Assembly: GCF_018882465.1 (NCBI RefSeq)
Contig: NZ_JACVOK010000002.1
Location: 496,001-560,000 of the forward strand
Direction of reading: 5' to 3'
Length of the DNA stretch: 64,000 bases
From: Polynucleobacter sp. 73C-SIWE
GTDB taxonomy: Bacteria; Pseudomonadota; Gammaproteobacteria; Burkholderiales; Burkholderiaceae
Below the pieces are notes generated by a model. That model was not told where the DNA came from. It ran no database searches and worked only from the letters and a program-made list of their open reading frames with translations. Made by a program: the position numbers and the translations under genes. The first letter of the stretch is position 1, and every line of letters begins with the position of its first letter. This document shows, in pieces, positions 6,230 through 42,467 of this stretch.

Positions 6230-6430
6230 ATGAGTGAATATCGATACGAAGATGCAGTAAAACAGCTACAAGAAAGTGGCGCTATTGGCCTTGTTGACCT
6301 TAAAAGCCTCCCTCATGATGATCTTGTAGAGCTCCTTGAGGAAATTAAAGTTTGGTGCCTATACGCTGGCGGGAAAACGGAAAAACTCCCTAAAGAGTCC
6401 AAAAAGAAGAAAAAGAAGAAAAAGGATTAA
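6230..6430 (+). CDS. hypothetical 66-residue protein with oligo-lysine tail
   Basis: I do not recognise this family. The first 50 residues look like a small helical domain (SEYRYEDAVKQLQES, then a second helix LVELLEEIKVWCLYAGG). The last 12 residues are SKKKKKKKKD, encoded by an A/G-only run. A strong predicted promoter directly upstream and family-like amphipathic helices support a real gene. The stop codon overlaps the stop of convergent phoR by a few bases (6427-6430). A basic tail of this kind could bind RNA, DNA or anionic membrane, or slow ribosomes. None of this can be decided from the sequence. Confidence 0.6.
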   Translation: MSEYRYEDAVKQLQESGAIGLVDLKSLPHDDLVELLEEIKVWCLYAGGKTEKLPKESKKKKKKKKD

Positions 6431-7731
6431 GCCTCAGGGGTTAGGCGTTCCCTGGGAAAGCACAACTTAAAAGTACTCCCTTTTCCTGGCGTACTTTCAA
6501 TGGCTAATTGCGCTTGATGTCGACTAGCAATATGTTTGACGATTGCAAGACCAAGTCCCGTACCCCCCGTATCACGAGAACGACTTCTATCTACCCGGTA
6601 AAAACGCTCTGTAAGTCTTGATAGGTGCTCTGAGGCAATCCCTGGACCAGTATCAGTTACGGAGAACTCTCCCAGTCCGTCTGCATTAACGCTCCACTTA
6701 ACGTGAATGTCGCCAGCATCAGGCGTATAGCGGATGGCGTTCGATACCAAATTGCTAAATGCAGAAAGTATTTCACGTTCTTCGCCCAAGATATCTTGTT
6801 TGCTAAGGGCTTCAAAAGTAAAGCTATGATGGCCGTGAGACAAAGCTTCTGCATCGTTTTTAAGTAAAGCCATTGATGTTTCAATATTGACCTTATTTGT
6901 CGCCGCCGGCAATGAATTAGCTTCTAAATTGGCAAGCGTTAATAAGTCTTCCACCAAACTCTTCATGCGTTGCGCTTGAGACATCATCATCTCAAAATAC
7001 TGATCGCGCTGACCTTTTTCAAGTTCCAAAGATTGAACTGTTTCAAGAAATCCCATCAGGACCGTGATTGGAGTTCTCATTTCATGAGATACATTAGCAA
7101 CGAAATCGCGGCGCATGGCATCCGCCTTTTGGAGATCAGTTACGTTTTGTACCAACAGTAAATGGCGCCGGTTACCAAAAGGAAAGGCTTGTAACATCAA
7201 GCTAAGGCTACTGTCCGGACCCATTCGCTCAAGTAACAATGGCTCATCAAAGCTACGTTTATTGAGATATTGAATAAATTCTGGCCGACGAATTAAAAAA
7301 TTAATCCGCTGCATCACATCTCGCTTAAAAACCAATCCAAAGAATCGTTCAGCAATACTATTACACCATTCGATCTGATCATCCTGATCAAGCATCAAGA
7401 TTCCATTTGGTGATGCTTGAAACGCCTCTATAAAGTGATCATGCTGCTGCTCGATATTGCGCATTCTTTGCTTTAGAGTTTTAACTAAACGTTGAAGTTT
7501 AAAAAATATCTCTTCCCAAAGACCACTCGGCAGAGGCATGATCTCAACCGAATCAGATTGAATGTATTTACTTAATTTTGCTAGATTGATGTAGGAATAG
7601 ACTAAAGGAATAGATAAAAAGGCTACTCCAGTCAGAATGGCTAATTCAGCACCCCAGTTGTATAAGACAATAAATGCGCCTATAAGCGCAAGGCAAACTA
7701 GGAAAATGAAGCGAGATAAAGCAGAAATCAT
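6427..7731 (-). CDS. phoR: phosphate regulon sensor histidine kinase PhoR
   Basis: A 434-residue sensor kinase. Two adjacent N-terminal membrane helices (about 7-24 and 27-48) leave almost no periplasmic loop, as is typical of PhoR, which reads the state of the Pst transporter through PhoU. A PAS domain follows (about 100-200, with ASPNGILMLDQDDQIEWCN). The HisKA motif is VANVSHEMRTPITV, with phospho-acceptor His216. The ATP-binding boxes are SNLVSNAIRYTP (N), DTGPGIA (G1) and GGTGLGLAIV (G2). It is the last gene of pstSCAB-phoUBR, 64 bases after phoB. Its partner is PhoB. Confidence 0.97.
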   Translation of the reverse strand: MISALSRFIFLVCLALIGAFIVLYNWGAELAILTGVAFLSIPLVYSYINLAKLSKYIQSDSVEIMPLPSGLWEEIFFKLQRLVKTLKQRMRNIEQQHDHFIEAFQASPNGILMLDQDDQIEWCNSIAERFFGLVFKRDVMQRINFLIRRPEFIQYLNKRSFDEPLLLERMGPDSSLSLMLQAFPFGNRRHLLLVQNVTDLQKADAMRRDFVANVSHEMRTPITVLMGFLETVQSLELEKGQRDQYFEMMMSQAQRMKSLVEDLLTLANLEANSLPAATNKVNIETSMALLKNDAEALSHGHHSFTFEALSKQDILGEEREILSAFSNLVSNAIRYTPDAGDIHVKWSVNADGLGEFSVTDTGPGIASEHLSRLTERFYRVDRSRSRDTGGTGLGLAIVKHIASRHQAQLAIESTPGKGSTFKLCFPRERLTPEA

Positions 7732-7795: not shown

Positions 7796-8509
7796 CTAGG
7801 TCTCAGTCGGCGTTTTGGTGATGCGGTAGCCACTACCCCTGACAGTCTCAATAAAGCGATCGCAATCAACGGGGGTCAATGCAGCCCTTAAGCGCTTAAT
7901 GTGGACGTCTACAGTGCGCTCTTCGATATAAACTTCATTACCCCATACCTTATCGAGTAAGTTGGTGCGGGAATGAACGCGCTCTGGGTTAGCCATAAAG
8001 AATTGCAGCAGGCGATACTCTGTAGGACCTAAAGCAACTGGCTTAGGCTCACAATTAGGCCAAACAGCCAAGACTCGATGGGAGCTGGGATCCAGTTTTA
8101 GGGGGCCAATAGAAAGTGGGCCGATATCATCTATAGGGGTCTGCCGACGCAGTAAAGCTTTGACCCGTGCGATTAATTCCTTCGGTGAAAAAGGCTTGGT
8201 GACATAGTCATCCGCACCAGAATCTAAGCCCATTACCTTATCTGCCTCTTCACTCTTTGCAGTTAACATCAAAATGGGTAAGCCTCTAGTGCGTTCGTTT
8301 GCCCGTAATTCTTTTGCAAACTGAACACCGGACTTACCGGGAAGCATCCAATCAAGGATAACCATACTAGGCAAGCGATCCTTCATCATTGCCACGGCAA
8401 GATCAGTTTGCATTGCCCTTTCTACTTCATAACCAGAATGGGTTAGATTAATTGCAATCAACTCTGCAATTGATGGCTCATCTTCAACTATTAGTATGCG
8501 GTGAGTCAT
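7796..8509 (-). CDS. phoB: phosphate regulon response regulator PhoB
   Basis: A 237-residue OmpR-family regulator. In the receiver domain, the acidic pocket is at VEDEP (9-11), the phospho-acceptor is Asp53 in VILDWMLPG, and the conserved Lys is 105 in VTKPFSPKE. The C-terminal winged helix ends in RTVDVHIKRLRAAL and VRGSGYRI, the recognition-helix and wing region. It would bind the Pho box found upstream of pstS. The gene lies 14 bases after phoU and 64 bases before phoR in one operon. Confidence 0.97.
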   Translation of the reverse strand: MTHRILIVEDEPSIAELIAINLTHSGYEVERAMQTDLAVAMMKDRLPSMVILDWMLPGKSGVQFAKELRANERTRGLPILMLTAKSEEADKVMGLDSGADDYVTKPFSPKELIARVKALLRRQTPIDDIGPLSIGPLKLDPSSHRVLAVWPNCEPKPVALGPTEYRLLQFFMANPERVHSRTNLLDKVWGNEVYIEERTVDVHIKRLRAALTPVDCDRFIETVRGSGYRITKTPTET

Positions 8510-8523
8510 AGTAGGTATTGTGA

Positions 8524-9231
8524 TTATTCTTTGTTAGCTTCGCGTACTAAATCTTCGTGCGGTATATGGCGAACATCTGAGCCCTTTGCAATATAAATTA
8601 CAAACTCAGCAATGTTTTTTGCATGATCGCCAATGCGCTCAATTGCCTTGGCAATTGTGAGCATATCTAAGCCAGTGCTAATAATGTGCGGATCTTCAGA
8701 CATATACGAAATGAGTTTTCGGACAAAGCCCCTAAACTCTTCATCAATCTGACGGTCCTCAGCCACAACCTCAGCAGCCGCAACGGTATCAAGTCGTGCA
8801 AATGCATCCAAACTACGACGTAATAGATTAATGGCCATTTGACCGGAGAGACGTATTTCGGCAACGTTGATGTTGTGTGGGGTACCGGCCTCAATCAGGC
8901 GTTTAGTACGCTTTGCAACACGTTCTGCTTCATCGCCTGCACGCTCAAGATTAGTAATCGCCTTTGATACAGCCATTACTAAGCGTAAGTCGCGAGCAGT
9001 TGGCTGACGTCTAGCAATGAGTTCAGTACAAGCTAGGTCAATTTGAACCTCAAGATCGTTTACCAGTTTTTCATTCTCGATAACAATATTACAAGTATCA
9101 ATATCCATTTGCGTGAATGCACGCATAGCAGTAGAAATCTGTGCTTCTACTAAGCCACCCATCTCTAATAAACGACTAGAAAGTGAATTTAAGTCCGCAT
9201 CAAATTGTGATGATAAGTGTTTATCTGGCAT
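8524..9231 (-). CDS. phoU: phosphate signalling and transport accessory protein PhoU
   Basis: A 235-residue protein of two repeated three-helix PhoU bundles. Metal-binding E/DxxxD motifs are visible in each: KAITNLERAGDEAERVAKRTKR in the first and KAIERIGDHAKNIAEFVIY in the second. PhoU links the Pst transporter to PhoR and represses the Pho regulon when phosphate is ample. It lies 13 bases after pstB and 14 before phoB, so it is translated from the same transcript. Confidence 0.97.
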   Translation of the reverse strand: MPDKHLSSQFDADLNSLSSRLLEMGGLVEAQISTAMRAFTQMDIDTCNIVIENEKLVNDLEVQIDLACTELIARRQPTARDLRLVMAVSKAITNLERAGDEAERVAKRTKRLIEAGTPHNINVAEIRLSGQMAINLLRRSLDAFARLDTVAAAEVVAEDRQIDEEFRGFVRKLISYMSEDPHIISTGLDMLTIAKAIERIGDHAKNIAEFVIYIAKGSDVRHIPHEDLVREANKE

Positions 9232-11967: not shown

Positions 11968-11993
11968 ACAGCTCCACAATCTTGTGGAGCTGT
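11968..11993 (-). terminator. intercistronic hairpin between pstS and pstC
   Basis: The arms ACAGCTCCAC and GTGGAGCTGT are perfectly complementary and enclose the six bases AATCTT (AAGATT on the - strand). The two innermost pairs could also close. On the - strand it is followed by TTTCATCATTTAAAT, a weak U-tract. Placed 35 bases after the pstS stop, it probably acts as a partial terminator or as a 3'-end stabiliser, so that the binding protein is made in excess over the permeases. Confidence 0.7.
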
Positions 11994-12028: not shown

Positions 12029-13051
12029 TTACTTGGTTGCAACTTTAGTAAATACGTTCTTACGAATAAAGTCTGTTGTTGAATCAGGCATCGGAACATA
12101 ATCCAACTCTTCTGCCATTTTCTTGCCATCTTTAAATGCGAAGTCAAAGAATTTGATCACTTCAGCAGCATTTGCTTTGTTATCTGGATTCTTGTAAAGC
12201 AAGATAAAGGAAGCACCGCTAATTGGCCATGATTTAGCACCAGAAGCATTGGTGATAAAGGTGCCCATACCAGGGATCTTTGCCCAATCAGTTCCAGCAG
12301 CAGCTGCAGCAAAAGTTACATCATCAGGTGCAACAAAATTACCGTCTTTATTTTTCAAAGAGATATAGGTCATCTTGTTCTTCTTGGCATAAGCATATTC
12401 AACGTAGCCAACGGAGTTCTTAACACGAGACACGTTTGCAGCAAAACCTTCATTGCCTTTACCGCCAACTGAAGAAGCGGCCGGCCATTTCACTGCGGCG
12501 CCAGCACCAACAGCATCTTTCCACAAGGTGCTTACTTTTGCTAAATAGTCAGTAAAAATAGCGGTCGTACCAGATCCGTCTGCGCGATGAATGACAGTAA
12601 TTGGACCGGAAGGGATCTTCACGCCTGGGTTCATGATTGCAATACGCTTATCACCCCAGTCAGAGATAATGCCCTGGAAAATATCTGCTAAGGTTGGGCC
12701 GTCTAATTTGATCTCACCTGGCTTAACACCGTCAACGTTTATAACTGGAACTACTCCACCAATAATGGCTGGAAATTGAACCATGCCATCTTTTTCAAGA
12801 TCTTCAAATTTCACTGGATTATCAGTTGCACCGAAATCCACTGTTTTTGCTTTAATTTGCTTGATACCGCCAGAAGAACCAATTGACTGGTAGTTCAAAT
12901 TAGAGCCGGTTTTTGCCTTATAGGCTTCTGCCCATTTGGCATAAATTGGGTAAGGGAATGTTGCGCCCGCTCCTGTCATATCAGCAGCAAATGCAATTGG
13001 GGCCAATGAAATAGCGCTAATAACGAGTGCTTTTTTCAAAAAAGATTTCAT
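12029..13051 (-). CDS. pstS: periplasmic phosphate-binding protein PstS
   Basis: A 340-residue binding protein that delivers phosphate to PstCAB. A cleavable signal peptide (MKSFLKKALVISAISLAPIA, cut near FAA/D) is followed by the mature start MTGAGATFPYPIY. Ligand-site motifs are GAGATFP, IGSSGG, VHRADGSGTT and the serine-rich loop near KWPAASSVGGKGNEG. I use the ATG at 13051. An upstream ATG at 13084 would put 11 extra residues before the signal peptide. A Pho box and -10 element lie 45-80 bases upstream. It is the first gene of the operon. Confidence 0.97.
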   Translation of the reverse strand: MKSFLKKALVISAISLAPIAFAADMTGAGATFPYPIYAKWAEAYKAKTGSNLNYQSIGSSGGIKQIKAKTVDFGATDNPVKFEDLEKDGMVQFPAIIGGVVPVINVDGVKPGEIKLDGPTLADIFQGIISDWGDKRIAIMNPGVKIPSGPITVIHRADGSGTTAIFTDYLAKVSTLWKDAVGAGAAVKWPAASSVGGKGNEGFAANVSRVKNSVGYVEYAYAKKNKMTYISLKNKDGNFVAPDDVTFAAAAAGTDWAKIPGMGTFITNASGAKSWPISGASFILLYKNPDNKANAAEVIKFFDFAFKDGKKMAEELDYVPMPDSTTDFIRKNVFTKVATK

Positions 13052-13096
13052 GTGATTAGTCCTAATATAGAAATAACGCAACATTGCGATATAAGG

Positions 13097-13130
13097 ACGA
13101 TACGATTGGACTATGACGCTTTGATGACAG
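13097..13130 (-). promoter_or_regulatory. PhoB-dependent promoter of the pst-pho operon
   Basis: On the - strand CTGTCAT (13130-13124), four bases CAAA, then GCGTCAT (13119-13113) match 12 of 14 positions of the E. coli Pho box. Ten bases later TATCGT (13102-13097) is a plausible -10. The normal -35 is replaced by the box, as expected for PhoB activation. It lies about 60 bases upstream of pstS. Confidence 0.8.
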
Positions 13131-13142
13131 GATTGTCATCAA
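13121..13142. repeat. perfect 9-4-9 inverted repeat overlapping the Pho box
   Basis: TTGATGACA, four bases GGAT, then TGTCATCAA form a perfect palindrome. Its left arm contains the first half-site of the pstS Pho box read on the - strand, and its right arm lies immediately upstream of the box. This could place a second PhoB half-site in the opposite orientation, or be an operator for another dimeric regulator. Confidence 0.6.
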
Positions 13143-13215: not shown

Positions 13216-14559
13216 TTATGCGATCGGCACTAAATCGGCGATACTTTTTGCAGCCGTCATGGCTACTTTGGCGTCTTTAGTCTCAACCATCACCCTGAGA
13301 AGGGGCTCTGTACCAGATGCCCTGATCAGCACCCTGCCAATATCTTTCAGATCAGCCTCTACTTTGGAGATCTGCTGTTTGAGTTTTTCATCTGACTTCC
13401 AATCGTAACCAGGCTTGAATTTCACATTCAAGAGCACCTGGGGAAAGATGCTTACCTTCTCCAATAACTGCGCCAGACTCTTTTTATTTTGACTCATGGC
13501 TGCTAGCACTTGGAGGGCCGCAATCGTGCCATCACCTGTGGAATGCTGATCTAAGCACAGTAAATGGCCTGAACCTTCTCCGCCAATAATCCAGCCCTTT
13601 TGTTTTAGGAGCTCAAGAACGTATCTATCGCCTACATTGGCACGCTCAAATCCAATCCCTAAATCCTTAATCGCGTTCTCAACTGCCAAGTTAGTCATGA
13701 GCGTACCAACTGCACCGCCAATCTTATATCCACGGTCCAATCGATCTTTAGCGAGCACATATAAAAGCTCATCGCCATTAAATAGTCTGCCTGTGGCATC
13801 GACCATTTGCAGACGGTCTGCATCACCATCTAAAGCAATGCCTAAATCCGCTTTTTCTGCCTTGACTTTAGCAATGAGTGCGTCAGGTGCAGTTGCGCCA
13901 CAGCCATCATTAATGTTTCTACCGTCTGGAGCAACCCCAATGGAAATTACTTCTGCACCCAGCTCATGAAAGACATTTGGTGCAGTGTGATAGGCGGCGC
14001 CATTAGCGCAATCGACTACCAGCTTTAATTTCTTCAGATTGAGATCACCTGGGAATGTCGATTTGCAGAATTCAATATAGCGTCCCGCTGCATCATCTAA
14101 GCGAAATGCTTTACCCAAATCTTGCGCACTCACACATCCCATGGGCTTTGCTAACTCAGCTTCAATTGCTAACTCAAAGTCATCATCGAGTTTGTCGCCA
14201 TTGGCCGAGAAAAACTTAATGCCGTTATCTTGATATGGATTATGTGATGCAGAAATCACCACGCCTGCTGATAAACGCAAGGCTTTAGTAAGGTAAGCTA
14301 CTCCAGGGGTTGGCATTGGTCCACACAACATAACATCGACGCCTGCGGCAGCAAAACCAGCTTCTAATGCTGCTTCGAGTAAATAACCTGAGATACGCGT
14401 ATCTTTACCAATCAATACTTTGCAACGTTGGCCTGGTTTGGCATCTCTGGATAAGACCATGCCTGCGGCATATCCAAGGCGAGTCATAAACTCAGGGACA
14501 ATTGGAAATTGCCCTACTTCACCACGAATGCCATCAGTTCCAAAGTATTGTTTTTTCAT
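13216..14559 (-). CDS. glmM: phosphoglucosamine mutase GlmM
   Basis: A 447-residue alpha-D-phosphohexomutase that converts glucosamine-6-phosphate to glucosamine-1-phosphate for peptidoglycan and LPS precursors. Visible features are the start [11 protein letters not shown], the phosphoserine loop VISASHNP (Ser105), the metal loop LDGDADR, the sugar-binding GGEGSGH and the phosphate-binding [12 protein letters not shown] near the C-terminus. Length equals that of E. coli GlmM. It follows folP by 44 bases in the conserved ftsH-folP-glmM order. A weak hairpin around its stop codon could end the transcript before the pst promoter. Confidence 0.97.
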
Positions 14560-42435: not shown

Positions 42436-42467
42436 AAAAATAGCGATCTACGGATCGCTATTTTTTT
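42436..42467. terminator. bidirectional terminator between mmsA and the DUF1178 gene
   Basis: TAGCGATC (42441-42448) and GATCGCTA (42453-42460) enclose the tetraloop TACG. A-run before and seven T's after extend the stem and provide U-tracts in both directions. Confidence 0.93.

Follow-up and report, generated by a model that had tools for sequence, protein, structure and literature searches.

The pst operon and its promoter

The window, that is, the whole stretch of 64,000 nucleotides of Polynucleobacter sp. 73C-SIWE analysed here, carries an operon with the gene order pstS-pstC-pstA-pstB-phoU-phoB-phoR, in which PstS, PhoU, PhoB and PhoR are backed by NCBIfam models and the three remaining genes are those that we take, from their translations, to be pstC, pstA and pstB (Table 1). 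The DNA-binding domain of the PhoB of the window aligns with the E. coli PhoB chains 3T72 and 1QQI, with 1GXP also listed (E 4e-32). The alignment with E. coli PhoB runs through the stretch RTVDVHI-RLR, which we take to be the recognition helix.

Table 1. Genes and promoter elements of the pst locus, in coordinates of the window.
Feature	Position	Strand	Remarks
pstS (start MKSFLKK)	12029..13051	minus	NF008171 and TIGR00975 above cut-off
phoB, regulator expected to bind	7796..8509	minus	TIGR02154 318.3 bits, cut-off 296.2
phoR, sensor kinase	6427..7731	minus	TIGR02966 408.2 bits, cut-off 334.2
phoU	8524..9231	minus	TIGR02135 above cut-off
glmM, upstream of pstS on the same strand	13216..14559	minus	TIGR01455 above cut-off
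Putative inverted third PhoB half-site (outer arm), TTGATGACA	13134..13142	minus	plus strand reads TGTCATCAA; PhoB binding presumed
Spacer ATCC, 4 bp, from inverted to first direct half-site	13130..13133		2-5 bp among 20 carriers
Pho box CTGTCATCAAAGCGTCAT	13113..13130	minus	two direct half-sites, 11 bp apart
-10 hexamer TATCGT	13097..13102	minus	10 bp past the Pho box
Second, better conserved palindrome CGCAATGTTGCG	13077..13088	minus	about +2 to +14 of the predicted transcript

Read on the minus strand, the promoter runs from TTGATGACA through ATCC, CTGTCATCAAAGCGTCAT, 10 bp, TATCGT and CGCAATGTTGCG to pstS, whose start codon lies at 13051; base 13130 is shared, being both the last of the spacer and the first of the Pho box. 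Scored against two CTGTCAT heptamers with a 4-nt spacer, the consensus as quoted in the available part of one paper (PMC3131613), the half-sites of the box reach 7/7 and 5/7, giving 12/14, the second being GCGTCAT. The site combines what characterizes a Pho box, namely a direct TGTCA-type pair 11 bp apart, a -10 hexamer at about 10 bp and both PhoB and PhoR encoded. The binding of PhoB to Pho boxes of this type is established. The first half-site also forms the inner arm of an inverted repeat at 13121-13142, perfect and of 9-4-9 type, whose arms, 13121-13129 and 13134-13142, are 100% complementary across a gap of 4 nt. A sequence-only reading of the window had described both the 12/14 box at pstS and its first half-site as one arm of a perfect repeat, and both descriptions were confirmed, the box with its coordinates. 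Elsewhere in the same genome no match to the strict Pho-box pattern was found, that at pstS being the only one, and with up to two mismatches allowed there were 27 matches against 13 for the reversed control.

A perfect repeat of such size is by itself not rare within 64 kb: counting arms of at least 9 around a loop of 0-10, we found seven in the window, where 10 dinucleotide shuffles had 2.5 on average. Next to a Pho box it is rare. A perfect repeat that begins at the box (gap 0-9) with arms no shorter than 9 is found in seven of 124 promoters of the genus; when the upstream 60 bases were shuffled 300 times, the mean was 0.02 and the maximum 1. The promoters are related and not independent. 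For arms of at least 5 beginning at the box, the figures in the same promoters are 14 and 0.85.

Conservation of the arm in the genus

The promoters of the genus were collected by a PstS search in 151 Polynucleobacter genomes, which gave a match in 139; one locus each was taken from 130 of them (L001-L130), and the nine matching genomes left out are G127 and eight in which the gene was partial or broken. L103, L121, L125, L126, L128 and L130 lie below the box cut-off and were excluded from all counts, so that 124 of the 130 promoters were kept; among the excluded ones, L126 and L128 have TGACA further upstream and L103 has a direct triple.

In an alignment of these 124 promoters anchored at the box, the information content is 1.16-2.00 bits at the GTCAY positions and 0.77-2.00 bits at the -10, the hexamers TATCGT (57), TATTGT (38) and TATCTT (16) together accounting for 111 of 124 at that offset; the outer-arm columns (-13 to -5) hold 0.04-0.55 bits and the spacer 0.02-0.15. 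Sought at spacers of 2-5, the arm was absent from 104 of the 124 promoters, and in L002, the nearest relative, ATGACA is retained but the outer bases are not. The column information of the outer arm rules out a conserved palindrome: because these columns are poorly conserved the palindrome as such fails the conservation test, and the outcome that the sequence-only reading had named as refuting, free variation of the outer arm in close relatives, was observed for the palindrome in the 104 arm-less promoters and the nearest relative.

Recurrence of the arm at a restricted place

Twenty of the 124 promoters nevertheless have an inverted TGAC near the box, starting at -9 in nine of them, at -8 in six, at -7 in four and at -10 in one, positions that correspond to spacers of 2-5 between TGACN and TGTCA. 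The adjoining columns contain far fewer such starts (none in the four upstream and two in the four downstream, against 20 at -10 to -7), and none of the 124 promoters has an inverted TGAC starting from -23 to -11. In L082 and L129 the inverted TGAC abuts or overlaps the box, so that 20 of the 22 inverted matches within 16 bp have spacers of 2-5, the restricted position to be expected of an accessory half-site. As for orientation, a third half-site in the direct sense, 11 bp upstream, is present in six other promoters of the 124; in the 20 carriers the extra half-site is inverted and does not share the orientation of the tandem pair.

A strict scan for the box, A, nine bases and TAT, which matches once each in 98 of the 186 genus genomes reached by the search and yields a set that overlaps the 124, gave a similar picture. 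Allowing TGAC upstream at any gap from 1 to 28, we obtained 26 matches in 24 genomes; 21 of the 98 promoters have gaps equal to spacers 2-5, and the remaining 24 gaps together hold five matches, with gap 1 occurring once and gaps 21-22 four times. Among the strict promoters from genomes beyond the first draw, counted by eye, the arm is present in four of 19, with 0.24 expected by chance under an assumed base composition. Three of those 19, in G276, G269 and G296 (the last being L222), were already known from other loci, and G276 and G296 carry the arm; among the promoters never seen before it is present in two of 16 (G289, G320).

Outside the genus, 54 boxes were compared, nearly all from Burkholderiales and with near-identical upstreams removed. 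The intervals -20 to -4, -40 to -21 and -60 to -41 hold 14, five and 20 starts of TGAC, and -10 to -7 holds two; this small and mixed sample shows nothing comparable to the peak in Polynucleobacter. In the samples studied, the inverted arm at this place is a trait of Polynucleobacter. Several non-genus pstS promoters bear extra direct TGTCA half-sites. Furthermore, in a group of Burkholderiaceae loci (L173-L187 except L183, and L288 and L289) a second TGTCA pair lies just downstream of the pstS -10, in direct orientation except in L173-L175, where it is inverted; a site of autorepression is possible there.

The distribution of the arm was followed on a rough, weakly supported tree of the end of glmM and the start of pstS (294 columns, 120 of the 124 rows, with four too-short rows dropped, including the carrier L107). 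The arm requires at least 15 changes on this tree, of which branches with support of at least 95 force at least five; shuffled labels require a mean of 17.9, and nine of 500 shuffles need as few as the arm does. From this distribution the arm would seem to be often gained or lost and weakly clustered on the tree.

Bases of the arm and covariation with the box

The arms were selected on TGAC alone, yet in 17 of the 20 carriers the bases beyond it, Y at position 5 and AA at 7-8, are also those of a PhoB half-site, against 0.98 expected from the 104 arm-less promoters at equal offsets; on the strand read, this extension is a purine, any base and TT. The binomial value that our script returned for 17 of 20 assumes independent promoters and is not to be taken literally, the promoters being related. 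The window's own arm, TGTCATCAA, fits the half-site bases beyond the GTCA core.

The outer and inner arms agree at positions 5, 9 and 10 in 14, 10 and 6 of the 20 carriers, not above permutation (13.1, 9.8 and 6.6), and positions 4, 7 and 8 hardly vary and are uninformative. At position 6 the two arms do covary: they agree in 15 of 20 carriers, where permutation gives 9.0 (p 0.002), and in 10 of 14, against 6.8 (p 0.05), after near relatives are collapsed by a grouping of our own. Four carriers (L025, L053, L065 and L107) have TGTCAC outside and TGTCAT inside, and perfect arms of 11-12 bp are found in L003, L021 and L060. The boxes of arm carriers are on average slightly better, with 13.6 of 14 matches against 12.9 in promoters without the arm.

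What the arm may be

The explanation that we favour, and that we consider reasonably probable, is that the outer arm is an optional accessory third half-site for PhoB, inverted and placed 2-5 bp upstream of the direct pair. The sequence-only reading had proposed a third PhoB half-site in opposite orientation, and this part of it gained support by comparison, from the recurrence in 20 of 124 promoters (21 of 98 in the strict scan) and from the half-site bases in 17 of the 20 carriers. In such a promoter PhoB~P would occupy the direct pair and act as activator from the standard place, 10 bp before the -10, and a third PhoB on the outer half-site would raise occupancy or steady the activator at low PhoB~P. 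This half-site would be gained and lost over evolution, with a promoter that can do without it, and the perfect palindrome would be a by-product of two near-consensus half-site copies in opposite orientation. The arm cannot be essential, since 104 of 124 promoters are without it, nor does it compensate for a weak box, since arms sit on good boxes; moreover, a variation of 3 bp in the spacer rotates the site by about 100 degrees, which disfavours one rigid complex. As the arm lies upstream of the box, a positive or tuning role is the more likely. The covariation of position 6 is not predicted by an accessory half-site, and that inverted TGAC shows no clear enrichment outside the genus was counted against it. 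A more symmetric arrangement, rather unlikely in our view, is that PhoB binds TGACA-N2-5-TGTCA as a back-to-back dimer, its DNA-binding domains following the two-fold of the receiver, and competes with or nucleates the tandem complex, in which case the gain or loss of one half-site would tune the threshold or the steepness of pstS expression.

Other explanations do not involve a third PhoB. The arm could be a neutral by-product of template switching at the half-site, which makes inverted copies that later decay and have no function, and its scatter on the tree, with possibly decayed look-alikes such as L010 and L011, would agree with this; however, copying would also carry positions 5, 9 and 10, which match no better than permuted ones, and the four carriers with TGTCAC in the outer and TGTCAT in the inner arm depart from a copy. 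Because a few arms are perfect over 11-12 bp and position 6 covaries, such an origin keeps some weight, and we regard it as unlikely without dismissing it. A perfect 9-bp palindrome is also the usual shape of a dimer operator, and the sequence-only reading had offered an operator for a second dimeric regulator, which would overlap the Pho box and compete with PhoB. The motif ATGACA-N1-6-TGTCAT is present in 107 of the 151 genus genomes, by eye more commonly than the reversed control, 11 of 19 such sites inspected in eleven genomes lie outside ORFs of at least 80 aa (eight lie inside), and the covariation of position 6 would suit a dimer. On the other side, the outer arm is poorly conserved, where an operator of this type would conserve its symmetry, the spacer ranges over 2-5 bp and is not constant, three of the four variable positions do not covary, the extra bases of the arm are those of a PhoB half-site, and the genome of the window has one match to the motif, which the pstS site fits, against one for the reversed control. 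Moreover, ten flanking proteins that were scanned include no transcription-regulator family (peroxiredoxin, ferritin, transglycosylase twice, endonuclease, porin, antiporter subunit and PPK2, with Sel1 and HC2 below cut-off). With spacer and symmetry both varying a second regulator is not indicated, and the proposal, left unsupported, is improbable.

Chance resemblance in an A/T-rich promoter might be invoked on the grounds that shuffled windows yield repeats of such size and that most promoters of the relatives (104 of 124) lack the arm, but it would have to account for 20 arms in a restricted position and for seven perfect arms of at least 9 where shuffles give 0.02, numbers that come from related promoters and not from independent trials. 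Altogether we find it highly improbable; for the genus as a whole chance is very unlikely, and for the single promoter of the window it could still hold. Hardly credible, finally, is an RNA hairpin or weak terminator acting on read-through transcripts of glmM: the palindrome folds as RNA at -10.5 kcal/mol, and none of 200 shuffles folds as well, but it is not followed by the U-run of an intrinsic terminator, the terminator scan lists none at the site, the predicted pstS transcript begins downstream of it and the arm is absent from 104 of the 124 promoters. A search of Rfam gave no family, the single match having E 1.7 and 14.6 bits against 75 needed.

The recurrence of the half-site in inverted form at one promoter of one genus is a natural experiment on the assembly of PhoB and on the turnover of its sites, and it is directly testable with reporters, because related species with and without the arm can be contrasted.

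Other palindromes in the genus and in the window

Palindromes of related sequence were seen at other loci of the genus. At about 982-1009 of L200 (G026), TGTCATAAAAATGACATATAAGTGTCAT contains half-site-like repeats in both orientations, direct and inverted; it precedes a short ORF and a gene for PPK2 polyphosphate kinase, and may be another mixed-orientation Pho-like site. ATGACAATTTTGTCAT stands directly before the start codon of an ORF in three genus members (L188, L189 and L197, at 993-1008); in L188 this ORF has a Sel1 match below cut-off and the divergent ORF is a porin, and the element is possibly an unrelated palindromic operator. TATGACA-N4-TGTCAT occurs at 993-1008 of L191, L192, L194 and L195, from two genus members (G111 and G016); in L191 it lies between ferritin-like and peroxiredoxin genes, and in L192 and L194 it has transglycosylase genes as neighbours.

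Just past the -10 of the window's pstS promoter lies TATCGCAATGTTGCG (13077-13091, minus strand), which in its exact 15-base form has a single occurrence in the genome; from the -10, the pstS transcript is predicted to begin near 13090. An element CGC-N5-7-GCG is present at the predicted transcription start in 99 of the 124 pstS promoters of the genus; the pairing of its core in all 99 is by construction, since the count required three core pairs, and in two of them the outermost pair is T-A instead of C-G. In the flanks the second pair is formed in 60 of the 99 elements against 47.2 in shuffled columns and, more weakly, the fourth in 39 against 31.1 (p 0.03), and the first and third pairs outside the core show no excess over shuffled columns. 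Perfect stems of at least 4 are found at this element in 89 of 124 promoters against 38.7 in shuffles, and stems of at least 5 in 17, within the range of the shuffles (mean 10.5, maximum 19). The leader of the window, as RNA, folds little better than shuffles (z -0.7), and the element could be either a 5' hairpin or a DNA site.

Between pstS and pstC there is a strong hairpin (11968-11993, minus strand; arms of 12, -20.1 kcal/mol), which may set the expression of pstS above that of pstCAB; by eye, similar hairpins follow pstS in the 15 loci, out of 30, that were viewed in that orientation. A perfect inverted repeat with arms of 13 at 42436-42465 of the window, which on the plus strand ends in a T run, has the appearance of an ordinary intrinsic terminator.

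Comparison with known systems

Pho boxes are usually extended by further direct half-sites. The tandem Pho box of E. coli (1GXP) resembles that of the window in its TGTCA half-sites 11 bp apart and in the succession of box, 10 bp and -10, and the regulator is likewise at hand, since the gene for a PhoB of the equivalog family lies about 3.5 kb downstream of pstS and on its strand; unlike the E. coli site, that of the window is immediately preceded by an inverted third half-site. In the titles and abstracts of the open literature searched, we found none on an inverted PhoB half-site at pstS or on the regulation of pstS in Polynucleobacter. For the rosR promoter, Pho boxes and inverted repeats are named as separate elements in the available part of the paper (PMC3131613).

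The E. coli phoB promoter comes closer. According to the available part of its description, based on a half-site search with flexible spacing, it has a half-site adjoining the main box as well as antisense half-sites, two of which, with a 1-bp overlap, lie at the -10 and repress (PMC6194859). The extra half-site beside the box and the presence of antisense half-sites are shared with the window; on the other hand, the single inverted half-site of the window lies upstream of the box, where a blocking of RNA polymerase would be unlikely. Regulators of the OmpR/PhoB family are described, in the available part of another study, mostly as binding direct repeats, and the domains of PhoB are said there to lose their fixed mutual orientation (PMC3960148); an inverted third PhoB at a spacer of 2-5 bp would then be possible. 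HP1043, a member of the same family, is said in that text to bind inverted repeats (PMC3960148) and offers a case of inverted half-sites for a winged-helix response regulator; however, it is an atypical regulator, whereas PhoB is a tandem binder and the inverted site of the window adds to a direct repeat.
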